From a virus: a stretch of 26,965 nucleotides of DNA. Below, one piece after another: positions 17,828-26,367 of the stretch. Each line of letters opens with the position of its first letter. Position 1 is the first letter of the stretch. The notes below the pieces were generated by a model. It was not told where the DNA came from. It did no database searches and was given only the letters and a program-made list of their open reading frames with translations. The position numbers were made by a program, and so were the translations under genes. The stretch lies in IMG/VR virus record IMGVR_UViG_3300046028_006360, positions 1-26,965 of that record; one strand, given 5' to 3'.

Positions 17828-18187
17828 ATGCACATTATATTTGGAGACTCACTTCATCTAATTCCCGAAAAGTTTACCATACTAGAACTAGACACATTTG
17901 AAGATGGCGACAAGCAAGAAACTGCGTGGTGTGTGGTAGAAAACATTCCGTTGGGAGATTTTCCAACACTAGACGCCTACAAAAAGGTACACAGTGACTT
18001 GATGCAGGCCTATCGAGGCCGCAATTGGGAATACTGCAACAGTGCAATTAAAGGACTGCGTGGTCGATGGAACGGGGAACTAGACAGTTTTTACGACAAC
18101 CTACAGGCCAGGGTTACTGACTACGAACAGACTCCTCCACCGGAAGATTGGAACGGATGTTTAACTCGCTCGTTGTCCGATCTATAA
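17828..18187 (+). CDS. Conserved small phage protein
   Basis: A 119-aa soluble protein (MHIIFGDSLHLIPEKFTILELDTF...). The second half carries a conserved-looking helical signature, AYRGRNWEYCNSAIKGL.GRWNGELDSFY, known to me from aquatic phage hypothetical proteins. AAAGGA (17816-17821) is the ribosome binding site. Its last 74 nt overlap the end of the convergent glycosyltransferase-like gene. Function unknown. Confidence 0.65.
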   Translation: MHIIFGDSLHLIPEKFTILELDTFEDGDKQETAWCVVENIPLGDFPTLDAYKKVHSDLMQAYRGRNWEYCNSAIKGLRGRWNGELDSFYDNLQARVTDYEQTPPPEDWNGCLTRSLSDL

Positions 18188-19454
18188 AATCATAGACGTA
18201 TTTTTCTAAAGCATTGAGATTGTTAACATGTTCTTTGGAAGTAACACAGTCGTAATCTTTAGTAGATCGTAACGCATCAAGATATTGTTCCATGTATTTT
18301 GGTGTACAACTTTTTAAAACTTCGTTGAATCCGCTAGAAAAGTTTTGTTTAAATTCGTCTACAACTTGTTGATGGAACTCGGAACTAAAAAATCGTTGTT
18401 GGTTGAAGTCAGCAATAGCTTGTAACTGTTGGTACATTTCCAAACGGTTTGGGCTGTTCTTGATATTGTTCATGAGATTGACTATGGCACCAAGGCGTTC
18501 TACTGGATCACTGATGGTATCATACGATTCGTCAAACACTGAGCTAAATGTCTTAAACCCGTAGCTTCGAAGATATGCAAGACTACCAGCAGTTGCTGCC
18601 AATATAAAAGGTTGTCCACAAGCAATTGGGCGCAGGGACTTTTCAGTGAGATGCAACCGACTGTCATCAAACAGTGTTTCTAACACAACTTCAATTGCTG
18701 TTTGCTGATAGTCCTGAGTGCAATAGTCTGCACTAGCAGTTGGCAAGGAATTATTTTTGTCAAAGTGCCTAGCAAGATCCGTGCCACAAACTTGCATGGC
18801 AGGATTGCTAAATTTGTGGTCACTGTAATGAATGCCATCAATACCATTGAATCCCATCCGACAGTGATGATGTAAATTGCTTTTTATCAAAAGTTCTGCA
18901 AACTTTAGACGATACTCTCTAGTGCCACTCCATGCTCTGTTGTAGATTAAAAAATCAGACTGAATATTTTTTTGTTTTAGATCTTGATCCAGTTGAGCAA
19001 ATCTAAACCAATCTCTAGCAATTAATGCATGGGCCCAGTAGTAAACTCCGGTGAAGTTATTTTGTGTGTATTTGTCTAGTTCCTTGCTGTTGAGCTCTGA
19101 ATGGCACAACAACGTATTTTTAAACACATGTGCTTTGTGCCTAAATTGCAAAGCAGAACGCAAATGCCAATGGGCAAACTGCTTGGCAACTGATTCTGAC
19201 TCAGAAAAGTTGTCCATAGAATGGCATACAAAATTATCCTGAGTCCAATAATTGTAATTTAATGGTTCTTGATCATGGCAAATCATTGGAGGTATGGTTA
19301 ATAACATGTTTAGATTGAGAAATATGTCACTCCATGTTAACGAATTTAAATCGCCTAAATTTCTTGAGCCATGTGGCGTCCAGCGATAAATTATGATATC
19401 TCGGTTGCAAAGACTCTGCAAAAAATTGTATAATCTATCTAAAGGAACACTCAT
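18114..19454 (-). CDS. Glycosyltransferase-like protein (exostosin-type pattern)
   Basis: A 446-aa protein, A+T-rich. The C-terminal third carries LTEKSLRPIACGQPFILAATAGSLAYLR..GFKTF, resembling the nucleotide-sugar-binding region of exostosin/fucosyltransferase-like enzymes (TEK..RPI..G.PFI) that recurs in T4-like aquatic phages. The N-terminal part (IIIYRWTPHGSRNLGDL, ICHDQEPLNY) has no assigned motif. The start at 19454 was chosen because upstream in-frame codons lie in the divergent dehydrogenase gene; the two start codons share one CATG. No ribosome binding site is evident. It probably transfers a sugar to a host or virion glycan together with the dehydrogenase (inference). Confidence 0.65.
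   Translation of the reverse strand: MSVPLDRLYNFLQSLCNRDIIIYRWTPHGSRNLGDLNSLTWSDIFLNLNMLLTIPPMICHDQEPLNYNYWTQDNFVCHSMDNFSESESVAKQFAHWHLRSALQFRHKAHVFKNTLLCHSELNSKELDKYTQNNFTGVYYWAHALIARDWFRFAQLDQDLKQKNIQSDFLIYNRAWSGTREYRLKFAELLIKSNLHHHCRMGFNGIDGIHYSDHKFSNPAMQVCGTDLARHFDKNNSLPTASADYCTQDYQQTAIEVVLETLFDDSRLHLTEKSLRPIACGQPFILAATAGSLAYLRSYGFKTFSSVFDESYDTISDPVERLGAIVNLMNNIKNSPNRLEMYQQLQAIADFNQQRFFSSEFHQQVVDEFKQNFSSGFNEVLKSCTPKYMEQYLDALRSTKDYDCVTSKEHVNNLNALEKYVYDFIDRTTSELNIRSNLPVEESVRSQ
19405..19434 (+). promoter_or_regulatory. Sigma70-like promoter for the UDP-sugar dehydrogenase
   Basis: TTGCAA (19405-19410), an 18-nt spacer and TATAAT (19429-19434). Predicted transcription start is about 19441, followed by AAAGGAA (19441-19447) and the ATG at 19453. 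It lies inside the 5' end of the divergent gene. Confidence 0.6.
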
Positions 19455-20694
19455 GAAAAAAATTGGTTTTATTGGAATTGGTAAATTGGGACTGGACTGC
19501 GCTGAAGTCATGGCAGAGAAACATGAAGTCAGAGGCTACGATATTTACCCACGTACTAGTGACAGTGTAAAAGTCTGCGATATTGACGAACTGGTCAACG
19601 AAAGCGAATGGATTTTTATTGCTGTGCCAACACCGCATGCCGAAGGGTATGATGGATCAGTGCCAAGCTCGCACATGGAACCCCGAGACTTTGGGCATGC
19701 GGCTGTGATTGACGCCATCAAGAACGTTAACAAATACGCAACCAGCTCAAAGAAGGTTGTGTTGATCAGTACAGTATTGCCAGGCACCACTCGCAAGCAC
19801 TTTGTTCCGTTGTTGGATGCCAAGCACCAGTTCTTGTACAACCCTTACCTTATTGCCATGGGCTCAGTTAAATGGGACATGGTCAATCCTGAAATGATCA
19901 TGATTGGTACTGAAGATGGTAACCCCAACGCTCTAGCTGGAGAACTTCGTGACCTGTATGACACAGTGATGCAAAATGATCCACGTTATGAAATTGGCAC
20001 CTGGGACGAATGCGAAGCCATCAAGATCTTCTACAACACATTTATTTCAGCCAAGGTTGGCTTGGTGAACATGGTACAAGACTTTGCCATGCGAATTGGC
20101 AACATCAATGTTGACGTTGTTACAAACGCTCTTGCACGTTCAACCATGCGTATCATGGGACCCAAGTACATGACAGCAGGTATGGGCGATGCAGGTGCTT
20201 GTCATCCACGTGATAACATTGCTCTGCGTTGGCTGGCAAAAGAATACAATATTGGATACGACTTGTTTGACACTGTGATGCATGCTAGAGAAATCCAAGC
20301 CAAGAACTTGGCTATGTTCTTGGTTGACTTGAGTGTGATGAATGACAACATGCCCATTGTGATTCACGGCAAGGCCTACAAGCCCGACGTAGAATACTGC
20401 ATTGGTTCATACTCAACCTTGGTAGGACACTATGTTGAAATGGAAGGTAGATCGGTTGTGTACGTTGATCCACTTGCTGACAACAAAGACAAAGTAGTAG
20501 ATGGTGTTGATAGCCCTGCAATATTTTTATGGGCACACAATCGCAAGATCACATATGAGTACACAGGCGATCAAGCTGACACCAAACCCTACTGTGACAT
20601 TTTGCCTGGCAGTATAATTGTTGACCCATGGCGCAAGTTGGAATCTACTGACGACGTTGAAGTGGTGCATTACGGTAATACTAGACATGCTTAA
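19453..20694 (+). CDS. UDP-sugar 6-dehydrogenase family protein
   Basis: A 413-aa member of the UDP-glucose/GDP-mannose dehydrogenase family, which oxidises nucleotide sugars to uronic acids with NAD+. The N-terminal Rossmann motif is GFIGIGKLG, followed by IAVPTPH and STVLPGTTRKH. The catalytic cysteine lies in GMGDAGACHPRDNIAL, a divergent form of the usual GFGGSCFPKD, and the C-terminal domain has GKAYKPDVEY in place of GLAFKP. The active-site Cys and Asp persist, so activity is likely, but the substrate may not be UDP-glucose. The start is fixed by AAAGGAA before 19453. Its end overlaps the 2OG oxygenase start by 8 nt. Confidence 0.85.
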   Translation: MKKIGFIGIGKLGLDCAEVMAEKHEVRGYDIYPRTSDSVKVCDIDELVNESEWIFIAVPTPHAEGYDGSVPSSHMEPRDFGHAAVIDAIKNVNKYATSSKKVVLISTVLPGTTRKHFVPLLDAKHQFLYNPYLIAMGSVKWDMVNPEMIMIGTEDGNPNALAGELRDLYDTVMQNDPRYEIGTWDECEAIKIFYNTFISAKVGLVNMVQDFAMRIGNINVDVVTNALARSTMRIMGPKYMTAGMGDAGACHPRDNIALRWLAKEYNIGYDLFDTVMHAREIQAKNLAMFLVDLSVMNDNMPIVIHGKAYKPDVEYCIGSYSTLVGHYVEMEGRSVVYVDPLADNKDKVVDGVDSPAIFLWAHNRKITYEYTGDQADTKPYCDILPGSIIVDPWRKLESTDDVEVVHYGNTRHA

Positions 20695-21190
20695 ATACCA
20701 CATTCCAAAATTTTGGGATAACGAGTTTAAACAGCTATTGTATATCAATGAAACATTCAATGATCCAAAAAATCTAGAACTCTGGCAAGGCCAAGGCTTT
20801 GCCAACAAATTCACTGGCGACATGTGTGACATGCGGTCAGTACAGCCCAGTTGGAATAAACAATTTGTAAAAATTTACGAAGAAATGGGTTGGAAAGATG
20901 TAGGCACCAGCTACTACAGAATGAGTTCGGGCACAATCCTTCCTACTCATCAGGATCTCTATGTCAAGTACATTGAATTGTTTAACCTACAAGGTCAGGA
21001 ACAATGTATTAGACGAGCAGTGGTATTTCTTGAAGACTGGAAATCTGGACACTACGGCGAATATGAAGATCAACCAATGACAAACTGGCGAGCAGGTGAC
21101 ACAGTAGAGTGGCAGTACGACACGCCGCACATGGCAGCCAATTGTGGGTTTGAACCAAGATACACATTACAAATTACAGGACACGTATGA
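20687..21190 (+). CDS. 2-oxoglutarate/Fe(II)-dependent oxygenase-like protein
   Basis: A 167-aa double-stranded beta-helix protein. The iron-binding triad is visible as H88-Q-D90 (PTHQD) and distal H148 (DTPHMAANCG), with R158 (PRYTLQITG) placed to bind 2-oxoglutarate. It resembles small aspartyl/asparaginyl-hydroxylase-type oxygenases common in aquatic phages. The ATG at 20687 overlaps the end of the dehydrogenase gene; an upstream in-frame ATG lies well inside that gene. The stop overlaps the amidinotransferase start (ATGA). The target could be a sugar, an amino acid or a protein. Confidence 0.8.
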   Translation: MLKYHIPKFWDNEFKQLLYINETFNDPKNLELWQGQGFANKFTGDMCDMRSVQPSWNKQFVKIYEEMGWKDVGTSYYRMSSGTILPTHQDLYVKYIELFNLQGQEQCIRRAVVFLEDWKSGHYGEYEDQPMTNWRAGDTVEWQYDTPHMAANCGFEPRYTLQITGHV

Positions 21191-22104
21191 TTAGTTCAGT
21201 TAACGAGTGGAGTCCACTCAAGAAAATTGTTGTGGGCAGTGCCACTGATGCTAACTGGCCAGTTAATGATCCGGTGTTTTCAAAAGAGTCAGAAAAGACC
21301 ACCTGGAAAGAAACACCTGTACCTCGTGGACCTGTGCCGCAACGTATAATTGATGAAGCTAACGAAGACTTGGATACGTTGGCAACCACTCTAATTAGCC
21401 TTGGCGTAGAAGTTGTGCGCCCAGATCCACTCAACTTCCAAGCACATGATGGCATGTATAATTACTGCCCGCGTGATCGGTTCCTTGTGTACGGATCAAC
21501 TGTAGTGGATCCTGCCATGATGTATCCCTGCAGAGACATGGAACTGCAATGCTATCACAACATTGTGGATTCTGCTGACCAATATTTGTTTATGCCACGT
21601 AATGAAGGCATGACACTAGACGCTGCCAATGTACTAAGACTCAACGACAAAATGCTGTTTTTGGAATCAGCAAGTGGTAATCGAGCTGCCTACAATTGGC
21701 TGTGTGATCAATTCCCAGATGTCACAATAGAATTATGCAATTTTTACGCTGGTGTACACATTGACTCAACCATTGTGGCCTTGCGTGAAGGCCTGGTCAT
21801 GTTAAACAGCAGTCGAGTTGGGTTTGACAGTGTGCCCAAGGTGTTTGATGGCTGGCAGAAAATTTGGGTAAATGAAGTAGTAGCTCAGGATTTTTACCAA
21901 TATCCTTATGCTTCAAAATGGATAGCAATGAACATGCTCACTGTGGATCCAAACACTGTAATTGTGGATCGGCATCAAACCGAATTGATCAAAACACTAA
22001 AAAGTTACCAATTTGAAGTTATCCCGTTGGAACTGCGCCACAGCCGAACACTAGGTGGCGGATTTCATTGTGTTACCTTGGACCTAAATCGTCAATCTCG
22101 TTGA
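21187..22104 (+). CDS. Amidinotransferase (glycine/inosamine-phosphate amidinotransferase family)
   Basis: A 305-aa enzyme of the guanidino-group-modifying superfamily, which moves an amidino group from arginine to an amine. Catalytic residues are recognisable: CPRDRFLVYG (94-103), D145 in MTLDAANVLR, H191 in AGVHIDST and the nucleophile C295 in LGGGFHC. This matches AGAT (D254, H303, C407) and StrB-type enzymes. It is complete and probably active. It has AGGA before the ATG and overlaps the oxygenase stop. Its partners, a UDP-sugar dehydrogenase and a 2OG oxygenase, suggest amidination of an aminosugar or small amine (inference). Confidence 0.9.
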   Translation: MISSVNEWSPLKKIVVGSATDANWPVNDPVFSKESEKTTWKETPVPRGPVPQRIIDEANEDLDTLATTLISLGVEVVRPDPLNFQAHDGMYNYCPRDRFLVYGSTVVDPAMMYPCRDMELQCYHNIVDSADQYLFMPRNEGMTLDAANVLRLNDKMLFLESASGNRAAYNWLCDQFPDVTIELCNFYAGVHIDSTIVALREGLVMLNSSRVGFDSVPKVFDGWQKIWVNEVVAQDFYQYPYASKWIAMNMLTVDPNTVIVDRHQTELIKTLKSYQFEVIPLELRHSRTLGGGFHCVTLDLNRQSR

Positions 22105-23173: not shown

Positions 23174-23457
23174 TTAACATTTTAACCGGCATTGTTGATT
23201 GGATCCAAGATGACTTTAAATCTAATCGAGTTCGCTTTGTTATTGAGCTTGTTGCATGGGCTATTAGTGTGGGTTGCAGTATTACTATGGCACTCACAGT
23301 CCCCAATCCCCCGCTTCTTGCTCTTTATCCTGTTTGGATTCTTGGCTGTAGTTTGTATGCTTGGGCTAGTTGGACTAGGAAATCTTTTGGCATGCTGGCT
23401 AACTATCTATTGTTGACCACTATCGACACAGTGGGTTTGTTACGCATGACTTTGTAA
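23170..23457 (+). CDS. Small three-span membrane protein
   Basis: A 95-aa protein with hydrophobic segments at about 22-44 (VRFVIELVAWAISVGCSITMALTV), 48-66 (PLLALYPVWILGCSLYAWA) and 74-93 (MLANYLLLTTIDTVGLLRMT). A weak resemblance to PnuC/SWEET-like small transporters is not enough to assign a function. The start overlaps the uvsE stop (ATGA). The first Pho-like repeat before plcP lies over its last codons. Confidence 0.65.
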   Translation: MINILTGIVDWIQDDFKSNRVRFVIELVAWAISVGCSITMALTVPNPPLLALYPVWILGCSLYAWASWTRKSFGMLANYLLLTTIDTVGLLRMTL

Positions 23458-23486
23458 CAAAATTGTAACAGATTTCTCCGTAAATA
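23453..23486 (+). promoter_or_regulatory. Pho-box-like direct repeat and -10 before plcP
   Basis: Two TGTAAC units (23453-23458 and 23464-23469) spaced 11 bp apart, the periodicity of PhoB half-sites (consensus CTGTCAT with 4-bp spacing). After 11 bp follows TAAATA (23481-23486) at the position of a -10. A 7-bp dyad (TTTCTCC at 23473-23479 with GGAGAAA at 23493-23499) flanks the -10 and start codon. Each unit differs from CTGTCAT at several positions, so PhoB control is probable rather than certain. Confidence 0.6.
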
Positions 23487-23490
23487 CTTT

Positions 23491-24285
23491 ATGGAGAAAA
23501 CATATCGCAGCATCTTCATCTCCGATGTTCACCTTGGCACCAAAGAGTGTCAAGCTGATCGTCTAAACAATTTCCTCAAGCACAACACCTGCGAATCCTT
23601 GTACCTAGTAGGCGACATCATTGACGGCTGGAAGGTACAACAAAACCGATTGAGATGGAAGCAAAGCCATACCAATGTGGTTCGCAGGATTCTAGGCCAC
23701 GCCAAACGTGGCACACGAGTTGTGTATGTGGCCGGCAATCACGATGAATTTTTACGTCCAATGATACCTGACGGTATCACCTTTGGGCATGTAGAAGTTC
23801 GCAATCAATGTGAACATGTGGGTGCAGATGGAAAACATTATTTGGTCACACATGGTGATCTATTTGATGGTATCACTCGCCTGGCTCCATGGCTGAGTTT
23901 TTTAGGGGATAAAGCATATGATTTCATACTATTTCTCAATACTAAGTTTAATTGGATACGTCACCGCTTGGGTTTTGGGTACTGGAGTATTAGCCTGTAT
24001 CTTAAGCATCGCGTTAAAAAGGCTGTAGATTTTATATTTCAATTTGAACGCAATCTTACTGACTACTGTAAAAAACGTGGATTTGATGGCGTGATATGTG
24101 GACACATCCATCACGCAGAAATCAAAAACATTGGCGGCGTTGTTTACATGAATGACGGCGACTGGGTTGAGTCATGCACAGCATTGGTAGAACATCATTC
24201 AGGTGCATGGGAAATTGTAACATGGACTCAAAAAAATGACAAAGAAGATACTGATAGTAACAGACAACTTACCGGATCAAATTAA
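23491..24285 (+). CDS. plcP: PlcP-type phospholipase C (metallophosphoesterase, LpxH-like fold)
   Basis: A 264-aa calcineurin-like phosphoesterase, often annotated as UDP-2,3-diacylglucosamine hydrolase, but its sequence pattern is that of PlcP, which removes phosphate head groups from phosphatidyl lipids to give diacylglycerol. Motifs: SDVHLGTK (D12, H14), GDIIDGW (41-47), GNHDEF (82-87), THGDLFDG near 115-122, GYWSISLYLK..VKKAVDFI, CGHIHHAEI near 208-216, and GDWVESCTALVEHH near the end. It overlaps the GT4 gene by 50 nt, the classic plcP-agt operon order. No Shine-Dalgarno precedes the ATG, and the -10-like TAAATA is 4 nt upstream. It is on the phosphate-regulated side of the block (Pho-like boxes upstream). 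LpxH activity cannot be excluded from sequence alone. Confidence 0.85.
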   Translation: MEKTYRSIFISDVHLGTKECQADRLNNFLKHNTCESLYLVGDIIDGWKVQQNRLRWKQSHTNVVRRILGHAKRGTRVVYVAGNHDEFLRPMIPDGITFGHVEVRNQCEHVGADGKHYLVTHGDLFDGITRLAPWLSFLGDKAYDFILFLNTKFNWIRHRLGFGYWSISLYLKHRVKKAVDFIFQFERNLTDYCKKRGFDGVICGHIHHAEIKNIGGVVYMNDGDWVESCTALVEHHSGAWEIVTWTQKNDKEDTDSNRQLTGSN

Positions 24286-25231
24286 TGGTGTGGTTACGAC
24301 CTACAAGAATTTGGAGGCACATGCGCTTCTGGATGGGTATCAGCTTGTTTATATTGATCCCGGGCAGTTCCCCCACCGTGATTGTCCTGGCTACAACGAA
24401 GTCAAGATTGCCTATCCCCGGGCGCTACGCAAGAAGATTGAGGAGGTGGGTGCGGATCATTACCACATCGCCACAGAGGGTCCTCTCGGTGTGTCTGCTC
24501 GACACTTGTTTGAGCGTGACGGTATACGTTATAATACCGCTTACCATACTCGCTTTCCTGAAGGCATAAAAAAACTTGTGGGTGTACCTGAATTTATAAC
24601 CTGGGCCTATGTGCGTTGGTTCCACAAACATTCAGGCAAGGTTCTGACCACAACAGAAACCATGGTCAACGAACTAAGAGATCAAGGCTTCGACGGCACA
24701 GTGATCAGTTGGACACGCGGTGTTGACCGAGAAGTGTTTAGACCCAACTGGCGTGACCCTATGGAAAATGATCGTCCCATACTATTGTGTGTGAGCAGAG
24801 TTTCAAAGGAAAAAAATCTTGATGACTTTTGTGCCATGGATTATCCTGGTGCCAGAAAAATCATGGTGGGCGATGGTCCGTATAGAAAAGAACTGCAACA
24901 GAAATATCCTGATGTAGAGTTTGTGGGATTTAAAACAGGACAAGCACTGGCTGAATACTATGCACAGGCCGATGTATTTGTGTTTCCATCCAGATGGGAA
25001 ACATTTGGTCTGGTCATGATAGAAGCCATGGCCAGTGGTACACCAGTGGCAGCATATCCCGCACCTGGGCCACTGGATGTGATTGATCCAGGAGTGACAG
25101 GTATTATGGATGAAAATCTAGCCACTGCCACATACAAATGCATGGGCTTGGATAGAGAAACAGTATGGTACGGCAGTCAGCATTGGAGTTGGCAACGTGC
25201 CTGGGAAATATTTAGAGCAAATTTAGTGTAA
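24236..25231 (+). CDS. agt: Agt-type GT4 lipid glycosyltransferase
   Basis: A 331-aa family-4 glycosyltransferase (GT-B fold). The N-terminal domain begins KKILIVTDNLPDQINGVVTT and contains HIATEGPLG and AYHTRFPE, the signature of lipid glycosyltransferases of the Agt/SqdX group. The C-terminal domain has ISWTRGVDREVFRP, LLCVSRVSKEKNLDD, VGDGPYRKEL and the E-x7-E sugar-nucleotide motif in WETFGLVMIEAMASGTPV. In alphaproteobacteria and SAR11, Agt glycosylates the diacylglycerol made by PlcP, yielding glycolipids that replace phospholipids. The 50-nt overlap with plcP implies coupled expression. Its stop lies within the first unit of the pstS Pho box. The sugar (glucose or glucuronate) is not predictable here. 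Confidence 0.87.
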   Translation: MTKKILIVTDNLPDQINGVVTTYKNLEAHALLDGYQLVYIDPGQFPHRDCPGYNEVKIAYPRALRKKIEEVGADHYHIATEGPLGVSARHLFERDGIRYNTAYHTRFPEGIKKLVGVPEFITWAYVRWFHKHSGKVLTTTETMVNELRDQGFDGTVISWTRGVDREVFRPNWRDPMENDRPILLCVSRVSKEKNLDDFCAMDYPGARKIMVGDGPYRKELQQKYPDVEFVGFKTGQALAEYYAQADVFVFPSRWETFGLVMIEAMASGTPVAAYPAPGPLDVIDPGVTGIMDENLATATYKCMGLDRETVWYGSQHWSWQRAWEIFRANLV

Positions 25232-25260
25232 CAAAACTGTAATATGATTGTCATTAAATA
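25227..25260 (+). promoter_or_regulatory. Triple Pho box before pstS
   Basis: Three PhoB-type units at exact 11-bp steps: TGTAAC (25227-25232), TGTAAT (25238-25243) and TGTCAT (25249-25254). The last two read CTGTAATATGATTGTCAT, with one mismatch per half-site to CTGTCAT-N4-CTGTCAT. TAAATA (25255-25260) follows directly. This matches the known presence of Pho boxes before pstS in cyanophages and fits activation by the host PhoR/PhoB system. Confidence 0.8.
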
Positions 25261-25284
25261 ATCGTGAACTACAAAGGAGAAATC

Positions 25285-26289
25285 ATGTTCAAACATTTAC
25301 TGACACTACTGGCCGCATTCACGGTGGTTACAGCACAAGCAGACATAGTAGGTGCTGGTGCAACATTCCCGTACCCGATCTATTACAAGTGGGCTGAAGG
25401 ATACAAGAAAGCCACAGGAGTAAGTTTAAACTATCAGAGTATTGGTAGTTCAGGTGGCATTAGACAAATCAATGCCAAGACCGTGGACTTCGGTGCAACA
25501 GATGCTCCTGTCAGCGGAGAGAATTTAGACAAAAACGGACAAGTTCAATTCCCTGCTATCATTGGCGGAACAGTTCCTGTAATCAACTTGGATGGATTTA
25601 AACCTGGTGAACTACGTATCACTGGTCCAGTGTTGGCAGACGTTTACTTGGGCAACATTACCAAGTGGAATGATCCTAGACTGACCGCACTGAATCCAGG
25701 CAAGCAGTTACCAGATCAACCTATTACCATTGTGCATCGTGCAGACGGTTCGGGCACAACATTTAACTGGACAGATTATCTTGCTACAGTCAGCCCTGAG
25801 TGGTTGGCCAAAGTAGGTCGTGGTGCCGCAGTCAAATGGCCAGCTGCCACTTCATTGGGCGGCAAAGGCAACGAAGGTGTTGCAGCCAACGTGACCAGAG
25901 TTAAGGGTGCAATTGGTTATGTAGAGTATGCTTATGTTAAACAAAACAAAATGACATTTCTACAAGTACAAAACAAATCAGGCAAATACGTCAGTCCTGA
26001 TGACCTAACATTTGCCGCGGCAGCAGATGGTGCTGATTGGTTCTCAGTTCCTGGCATGGGCCTGAGCATTGTAGATCAAAAGAATCCTAATGCTTGGCCA
26101 ATAAGTTCAGCAAGTTTTATCATCATGTACAAAGAGCCAAAGAACAAAGCCACTAGTGATGAAGTGTTAAAGTTCTTTGATTGGGCATTTAAGAATGGTA
26201 AGAAAGATGCTGTAGATTTAGATTATGTGTCATTACCTGACGCACTAACAAAACAGATCCGTGAACGTGTTTGGACACAGATTAAGTAA
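25285..26289 (+). CDS. pstS: PstS, periplasmic phosphate-binding protein
   Basis: A 334-aa substrate-binding protein of the high-affinity Pst phosphate transporter. The signal peptide covers about residues 1-19 (KHLL...TAQA, cleavage before DIVGAG). Phosphate-binding motifs are GAGATFPYP, GSSGGI, DFGATDAPV, HRADGSGTTFNWTDYL and GNEGVA. It lacks pstCAB neighbours, so it would use the host transporter. Similarity is to betaproteobacterial PstS (NLDGFKPGEL, YVEYAYVKQNK), a clue to the host. The start at 25285 has AAAGGAG in front; an in-frame ATG at 25264 is rejected because the signal peptide would then be buried. A triple Pho box lies upstream and a terminator downstream. Confidence 0.97.
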   Translation: MFKHLLTLLAAFTVVTAQADIVGAGATFPYPIYYKWAEGYKKATGVSLNYQSIGSSGGIRQINAKTVDFGATDAPVSGENLDKNGQVQFPAIIGGTVPVINLDGFKPGELRITGPVLADVYLGNITKWNDPRLTALNPGKQLPDQPITIVHRADGSGTTFNWTDYLATVSPEWLAKVGRGAAVKWPAATSLGGKGNEGVAANVTRVKGAIGYVEYAYVKQNKMTFLQVQNKSGKYVSPDDLTFAAAADGADWFSVPGMGLSIVDQKNPNAWPISSASFIIMYKEPKNKATSDEVLKFFDWAFKNGKKDAVDLDYVSLPDALTKQIRERVWTQIK

Positions 26290-26296
26290 AAACCGT

Positions 26297-26333
26297 CCTC
26301 AACGATAGAGAGGCGCTGGAACTCGTAACCAGC
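26297..26333 (+). other. Two short hairpins after pstS
   Basis: CCTC (26297-26300) pairs with GAGG (26310-26313), and GCTGG (26315-26319) with CCAGC (26329-26333), each with a 9-nt loop. They precede the terminator and form a three-hairpin 3' end with it. They could stabilise the pstS mRNA, or they may be incidental. Confidence 0.4.
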
Positions 26334-26362
26334 ATAATAGGACTACACAGTCCTATTATTTT
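26334..26362 (+). terminator. Intrinsic terminator after pstS
   Basis: An 11-bp perfect stem (26334-26344 with 26349-26359), a 4-nt ACAC loop, and a short T-run (26359-26362). It separates the phosphate block from the small gene downstream. The stem is fairly A/T-rich at its base, which adds to the U-tract effect. Confidence 0.8.
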
Positions 26363-26367
26363 GGCCG

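Follow-up and report, generated by a model that had tools for sequence, protein, structure and literature searches.

The question raised by this locus is why a virus should carry, side by side, two genes of the kind used for exchanging membrane phospholipids for glycolipids and a gene for phosphate uptake. The window, that is, the whole stretch of DNA analysed, is one IMG/VR virus record (IMGVR_UViG_3300046028_006360) of 26,965 bases, probably a fragment of a genome. An earlier note on it, made from its letters alone, had described an overlapping plcP-agt pair (for a phospholipase C and a GT4 glycosyltransferase) with an adjacent pstS (for a phosphate-binding protein), and had read them as a phage-borne block for lipid remodelling under phosphate starvation. 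We found the open reading frames (ORFs) where it had placed them, agt overlapping plcP by 50 bases, and the families as it had named them (Table 1). The observation is thus confirmed, and the interpretation is supported as far as gene families and context go. We consider it probable that the locus is a phage-borne, phosphate-responsive cassette for the remodelling of membrane lipids, because plcP and a glycosyltransferase gene are tightly coupled, PlcP is not LpxH, the GT4 protein lies in the Agt clade and keeps most of the key residues of a characterised enzyme, 11-bp repeats precede both units, there are precedents in cyanophages and in Pseudomonas aeruginosa, and the context is that of a phage. 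The module would have its place within the known phosphate auxiliary metabolism of phages.

Table 1. Features of the plcP-agt-pstS locus and its surroundings in the window
Feature	Position	Strand	Evidence or remark
plcP	23491..24285	+	Predicted PlcP-type calcineurin-like phospholipase C, 264 aa; Pfam Metallophos; LpxH models, tree, aligned metal motif
agt	24236..25231	+	Agt-type GT4, predicted diacylglycerol glycosyltransferase, 331 aa; Glycos_transf_1 and Glyco_transf_4; trees; model
pstS	25288..26289	+	Phosphate-binding protein of Pst ABC transporter; NCBIfam PRK10918 406 bits (cut-off 339); phrog_5385
Direct repeat TGTAAC-N5-TGTAAC, Pho-box-like	23453..23470	+	Exact pattern match; overlaps stop codon of preceding 95-aa gene
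Three 11-bp-spaced units TGTAAC-N5-TGTAAT-N5-TGTCAT, Pho-box-like	25227..25254	+	Before pstS
TAAATA, candidate -10 element	23481..23486	+	28 bases after repeat start; ends 4 bases before plcP ATG
TAAATA after pstS repeats	25255-25260	+	Follows three-unit repeat
RNA hairpin, possible terminator	26329..26364	+	-17.7 kcal/mol, z -5.0, 0/200 shuffles as stable
Nucleotide-sugar dehydrogenase	19453..20694	+	phrog_9148 'UDP-glucose dehydrogenase' E 1.7e-89; Pfam UDPG_MGDP_dh

Families of PlcP and Agt

PlcP has the calcineurin-like metallophosphoesterase fold in common with LpxH of the lipid A pathway, and its nearest solved structures, which are those of LpxH (TM about 0.54 for the top one; mean pLDDT of the model 79.8), do not separate the two families. 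The metal-binding motif is intact (D12xH14, D42, N83H84, H121, H205xH207), with the ligands D12, H14, D42, N83, H84, H121, H205 and H207 invariant in alignments of 12 and 19 rows. On two LpxH equivalog models with cut-offs of 134 and 190 bits, the window PlcP reached 40 and 29 bits, whereas E. coli LpxH reached 364 and 389 bits; the values were 55 and 44 bits for P. aeruginosa PlcP, 38 and 39 bits for a paralogue on pSymB of S. meliloti, and 60 and 50 bits for PlcP of the cultured Pelagibacter phage Mosig EXVC030M. In the PlcP tree (69 rows, dereplicated from 165; L001, a copy of the window, and L020 and L044, with truncated PlcP, were left out), the window falls together with 25 further viral rows in a single clade (SH-aLRT 100), which lies among bacterial PlcP, with Mosig, the cyanophage S-SRM01 and a record called L152 here outside it, and LpxH, which is present as one row only, is set apart by a branch with a length of 10 changes per column. 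L108, a fecal record listed as 'phage' but unverified, the neighbouring genes of which look bacterial, was labelled bacterial. This tree and those that follow come from quick searches, with uncertain roots and with SH-aLRT as the sole measure of support; for the bacterial side, the best 80 were taken out of at least 580 relatives. LpxH was rejected as the identity of the window protein on these scores and on its remoteness in the tree, in agreement with the earlier note, and membership of the PlcP family is well supported by the sequence comparisons.

The GT4 tree (64 rows, reduced from 97; viral Agt below 300 aa and bacterial matches below 200 bits were left out, except two kept as other GT4) places the window protein within the clade of Agt proteins, where those of bacterial plcP-agt pairs are its neighbours, and leaves WaaG, WaaB, WcaI, WcaC and MgtA outside on long branches. 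The earlier note's distinction from unrelated glycosyltransferases therefore stands, an identity as lipopolysaccharide (LPS) enzyme was rejected since the protein groups apart from WaaG and WaaB, and Agt family identity is likewise well supported by the alignments and trees. The model (mean pLDDT 90.8) has GT-B glycosyltransferases as its nearest folds. The window PlcP is 55% identical to that of P. aeruginosa and the window Agt 40% to its Agt1; Agt is 62% identical to the GT4 protein of L152. The P. aeruginosa pair was taken from a locus (L190) where the next gene encodes an adenylate cyclase, presumably PA3217, and was equated from this gene order with PA3219-PA3218, for which a characterisation has been published (PMC8528852). 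A broader Agt tree has 48 rows, dereplicated from 136; the four E. coli GT4 were dropped for it, and nothing was added from the Agt scan. Its 23 phage rows, with L152 included, are united in a single clade (SH-aLRT 98), the depth of which suggests long residence in phages and not recent capture, SAR11 and Bacteroidota Agt being absent from the trees.

These placements bear on a quite different explanation, in which the GT4 protein (and GT2 in other phages) would alter LPS or another acceptor as a defence against superinfection and the metallophosphoesterase would be an LpxH-like lipid A enzyme. Glycosyltransferases and UDP-glucose 6-dehydrogenase of pelagimyophages have been interpreted as LPS-related (PMC7029224), the databases use LpxH-type names, and the window has a nucleotide-sugar dehydrogenase of its own. 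However, neither protein groups with the LPS enzymes that this would require, and the 11-bp repeats common to plcP and pstS fit phosphate control, so that we find surface modification improbable.

A side observation concerns a betaproteobacterial single-cell contig (L150:5923-8641), in which plcP is followed by DUF3419 and methyltransferase genes. We take these two for the betaine-lipid genes btaA and btaB, and such neighbours are consistent with PlcP supplying diacylglycerol.

Phage location and spread of the plcP-glycosyltransferase pair

The ribonucleotide reductase (RNR) subunits and the DNA ligase encoded in the window match phage families, and a PAAR protein, a ClpX-like ATPase and a UvdE-like endonuclease are also encoded. 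The terminase and gp23 models gave no match in the window, and a megablast search of its bases 1-25000 against 50,697 phage records was also negative. Two other viral contigs (L004 and L005) encode PlcP 98% identical to that of the window, and the three have a common gene order, namely UDP-glucose dehydrogenase (UGD), 2OG-oxygenase-like, amidinotransferase-like (two of these names were given by eye), UvdE, a small membrane protein, plcP and agt; the window-type pstS was not found on L004 and L005. On the contig of L005, which is 113 kb long, there are genes for the large subunit of a terminase (phrog_36964, E 5e-116), for a DNA helicase (phrog_16) and for a single-stranded DNA (ssDNA)-binding protein (phrog_1192). 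Among two sets of 25 (window included) and 20 records, which were chosen by us and are mostly longer contigs, T4-type gp23 exceeded the cut-off in 3/25 and 8/20 records (11/45), and it had no match in 14 control genomes; Terminase_6C exceeded it in 5/25 and 11/20 records, and also in 4 of the 14 control genomes. Several of the examined contigs are longer than 200 kb.

A misclassified or chimeric contig carrying host DNA might be suspected, as the window is only 27 kb long and is without the terminase and gp23 domains that were looked for. The terminase, phage DNA helicase and ssDNA-binding protein on a 113-kb contig with the same order up to agt, the occurrence of gp23 on records of both sets and its absence from the controls, and the position of the window PlcP and Agt within clades of viral rows all speak against it. 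Host contamination was rejected, chiefly on the terminase and the two viral clades, and we give it hardly any credence; the module is located in phage genomes, and the flanks are phage-like, as the earlier note had supposed. In this connection, L152 (NHBR02000105.1, bin label Muricauda sp. TMED12) has plcP-agt amid genes matching phage PhoH, exonuclease and endolysin families, and is probably a misbinned phage fragment.

The scan of IMG/VR with the window PlcP returned at least 596 relatives, a number suggesting that the module is common, and the best 80 were analysed as viral PlcP loci. A glycosyltransferase gene accompanies plcP in 76/80, with Agt downstream in 50 and GT2 in 26, and the remaining 4 end at a contig edge. 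Agt follows directly in 47 of the 50 loci; in the other three a gene for a RimK-type ATP-grasp ligase is interposed (L045:1970-2860, L070:6895-7785 and L081:6722-7621). Two GT2 proteins were scanned, and they matched PF00535 and, above cut-off, also PF13506 (GT21). Seen from the Agt side, PlcP is encoded in 77/79 new loci, in 74 of them next to Agt, and the other 2 stop at the end of a contig; as for GT2, PlcP is adjacent in 75/79 new loci, and contig ends account for the other 4; at least 18 of the Agt-side and at least 8 of the GT2-side loci are contigs already in the PlcP scan. The scan with the Mosig protein (80 loci) gave 45 loci with Agt, 14 with GT2 and 10 contig edges, and the others are considered below. 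In the bacterial set, Agt stands directly after plcP in 45 of the 80, L152 included. On one contig (IMGVR_UViG_3300023243_000078; L043 and L416) two different PlcP genes, one window-type and the other found with the Mosig query, lie about 6 kb apart, each followed by GT2. The module, of which the earlier note was aware of no description in a phage, is thus widespread among phage sequences and no isolated case.

The bacterial plcP-agt operon, known from SAR11 strain HTCC7211 and from P. aeruginosa (PA3219-PA3218), has the same two families in the same order, its genes likewise overlap or abut, and a Pho-box-like site lies upstream. The window pair differs in being carried by a phage within clades of viral rows and in having Glu for the catalytic Asp of Agt in its subclade, and in many other phages GT2 replaces GT4. 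In bacterial plcP operons the partner is agt (type 2) or, in types 3 and 5, another glycosyltransferase (PMC4796936), and the exchange of two glycosyltransferases beside one phage hydrolase mirrors these types. The pstS and phoA genes of cyanophages, which are under the host PhoBR system, resemble the window in being phage-borne phosphate genes with a PhoB-type site, the site in the window being putative, and the window PstS is about 40% identical to cyanophage PstS among the matches listed. Among the 50,697 phage records, the window PlcP found five (E up to 1e-3), of which the sole cyanophage is S-SRM01 (two accessions, 37%); Agt found seven (E up to 1e-10), none of them among these five, so that at these limits the two were seen together in no record of the set. 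The PlcP of Mosig (QOI69083.1, 48.5% identity), annotated as 'UDP-2,3-diacylglucosamine hydrolase', adjoins a divergent PstS-type gene and, unlike that of the window, has no glycosyltransferase beside it; a term search of the main text of the Mosig genome paper for lipid, LpxH, pstS and phosphate found no occurrence.

Repeats before plcP and pstS, and the neighbouring genes

Pho-like 11-bp repeats before both units were a further claim of the earlier note. The repeats are real and are conserved in relatives, while the fit to the Pho-box consensus is poor at plcP, and we use the name Pho box in a putative sense. Searched on both strands, the window contains just three exact matches to the pattern TGT[AC]A[CT]-N5-TGT[AC]A[CT], and these lie before plcP and pstS. 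Upstream of plcP in the viral relatives, 54/80 loci reach at least 11/12 positions, with 1.3 expected from the loci themselves. After dereplication from 80 to 49 loci, a repeat of this quality with a spacing of 11 precedes plcP in 30/49, and with the other spacings between 6 and 17 never in more than 5/49; it occurs before other genes in 4/363 upstream regions, and mononucleotide shuffles gave a mean of 0.165/49. As the motif was derived from the window, the relatives are a test which is not wholly independent. The Mosig-type set (dereplicated from 80 to 44) gave a weaker signal, with the repeat in 8/44 at spacing 11 and no more than 3 at other spacings. The pstS repeats (at least 11/12 positions) are also present before pstS in all five viral PlcP loci which hold the window-type gene. 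Units spaced by 11 bp thus occur before these genes beyond chance.

TAAATA is present in 27/30 of the repeat-bearing relatives, at an offset of 28 (11 loci) or 38-39 (16 loci), and in 56/80 viral loci its end lies 4-8 bases upstream of the plcP start codon (ATG), a position which suggests leaderless or near-leaderless transcripts. We take it to resemble the T4-type late promoter. A sigma-70 promoter scan found no promoter on the + strand at either repeat. In relatives, the published consensus CTGTCATNNNNCTGTCAT gives a weaker signal than the window motif, being matched at 10/14 positions or more at spacing 11 in 13/49 loci, compared with no more than 4/49 at other spacings, and before 17/363 other genes. 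Between the pstS-type gene and plcP of Mosig (L002:5800-6000), TTTAACA and CTTAACA stand 11 bp apart, and could possibly be a host-specific version of the repeat.

As to pstS itself, the most likely start is the ATG at 25288, which lies behind AAGGAG and opens a signal-peptide-like N-terminus, and not the listed GTG at 25264. The hairpin after the gene was not picked up by a simple terminator scan. Window-type pstS is found in 2/80 Mosig-type loci and in 16/79 Agt loci, and a PBP_like_2 (PstS-type) protein, which these counts miss, adjoins plcP in Mosig, L398 and L433.

The nucleotide-sugar dehydrogenase, 2.8 kb upstream of plcP, has relatives on 7/25 records, window included, and scored 133 bits on the NCBIfam model, under the cut-off of 190. 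UDP-glucuronate is one of the donors used by the SAR11 glycosyltransferase GTcp (PMC8231724), and the dehydrogenase could be a source of it for Agt and in this sense belong to the module. A fatty-acid desaturase (PF00487) is encoded at 1200-1931 of the window as a further membrane-lipid gene, with relatives in 15/80 viral plcP loci. Two other genes may be mentioned, that of the amidinotransferase-like protein (21187-22104; phrog_25854, unknown function) and that of a protein of 465 aa (18114-19511), for which neither Pfam nor PHROG gave a match.

A proposed phosphate-responsive cassette and its alternatives

We propose the following course of events, in which the catalytic activities, the substrate and sugar, the binding of PhoB and the benefit to the phage are predicted from sequence. 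Low phosphate would activate PhoB of the host, if the host has one, and PhoB acting through the 11-bp repeats would have the phage plcP-agt and pstS transcribed in starved cells. PlcP would cut the phosphate-bearing head group off host phosphatidylethanolamine or phosphatidylglycerol, giving diacylglycerol and a phospho-alcohol, and Agt would put a sugar from a UDP-sugar onto the diacylglycerol, so that the membrane stays intact. The head-group phosphate would be freed after further phosphatase action while PstS keeps phosphate import running, and the freed and imported phosphate would go into nucleotide and phage DNA synthesis. There are precedents for this scheme: pstS and other genes of cyanophages are reported to be run by the host PhoBR (PMC10976474), and plcP-agt1 of P. 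aeruginosa has a Pho box and leads to a glycolipid (PMC8528852).

Several results weigh against the proposal. With up to 3 mismatches, CTGTCATNNNNCTGTCAT has 3 matches in the window, where 3.7 are expected by chance; these include only one of the two sites, that of pstS, which agrees at 12/14 positions, and the plcP site agrees at 8/14. The intergenic region of pstS and plcP in Mosig has no match to the window repeat motif. The neighbourhood of pstS and plcP, which the earlier note had reported correctly for the window, is a minority arrangement, as window-type pstS lies near plcP in 5/80 PlcP loci and is on 4/25 examined records, window included. Moreover, 11/80 Mosig-type loci have PlcP and room beside it but no recognised glycosyltransferase. 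Finally, Agt itself carries a substitution. For GTcp, 14 residues are given as essential or nearly so (PMC8231724), and the window Agt keeps 13 of them, with Glu255 in place of Asp256 (the residues were mapped by motif). The site is Asp in 24/24 bacterial Agt rows, and in GTcp the D256A variant is reported as dead and D256E as having lost more than 90% of the activity (PMC8231724).

It is therefore possible, though we think it rather unlikely, that the activity of the window Agt is lost or changed, for example towards another sugar donor. The near-inactive GTcp variant points this way, and the Glu is frequent, being found in 31/32 phage rows of the GT4 tree and in 123/165 scorable viral Agt ORFs (a redundant set; a further 8 ORFs stop short of the site). 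On the other hand, the remaining 13 key residues are all present and the clade is both large and conserved, which speaks for a functional enzyme. Glu is also usual here in other GT4 enzymes; it occupies the catalytic position of MshA (PMC8231724), and most of the seven rows for other GT4 enzymes in the GT4 tree have it. In the broader Agt tree, the eight Glu rows make up one subclade (support 84) inside the phage clade, the other 15 phage rows having Asp, which suggests a single switch from Asp to Glu within phages; L266, which is not in this tree and has Asp at 66% identity, may be an exception. The Agt of L053 is another example of a phage Agt with a natural Asp. We read Glu255 as a possible change of sugar donor or kinetics, though it may also mean a loss of function.

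Lipid remodelling might also serve not phosphate supply but the properties of the membrane, its charge, curvature or receptor exposure, with effects on how virions assemble, when the cell lyses or whether superinfection is excluded. When a phospholipase C releases a head group, the product is a phospho-alcohol on which a phosphatase must still act, according to established chemistry, and the desaturase with its relatives near viral plcP would fit a wider tailoring of membranes. However, the 11-bp repeats are shared by plcP and pstS, and PstS-type neighbours occur in several lineages, so we regard this alternative as a minor contender and retain the phosphate-responsive cassette.

No description of PlcP-Agt in phages was found in the open-licence PMC literature, judged by title or abstract start among the matches listed. 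What comes nearest is lpxH as listed among the auxiliary genes of Lake Baikal viruses (PMC9611531); the protein behind this entry may be a PlcP of the kind described here. In two phage isolates with PlcP, the protein is labelled with the LpxH product name, and a global-ocean catalogue of auxiliary genes left out contigs with glycosyltransferases and other LPS-island genes (PMC11360552). Term searches for lipid and phosphate words in PMC6802176 and PMC7674155 gave no match. Considering all this, we entertain, with belief and doubt in about equal measure, a broader picture for large T4-like phages, the habitat of which is probably lakes and seas: they would have an old, phage-evolved and phosphate-controlled cassette of one phospholipase C with either Agt or GT2, which makes the host phospholipid a phosphate store during infection, and which was overlooked since PlcP is labelled LpxH and surveys can discard glycosyltransferase contigs; in the window subclade, the change from Asp to Glu would perhaps give a different glycolipid.

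Phosphorus supply affects phage production, and the known answers of phages include pstS, phoA and nucleotide recycling; cyanophages without pstS are reported to lyse late or with lower yield in phosphate-starved hosts (PMC10976474). If the proposal is true, the phosphate of the host membrane, with the lipid replaced, would be a further answer of phages to low phosphorus. The influence of phages on membrane lipids under low phosphorus would then become directly testable, and the relabelling of phage 'LpxH' would correct surveys of auxiliary genes.

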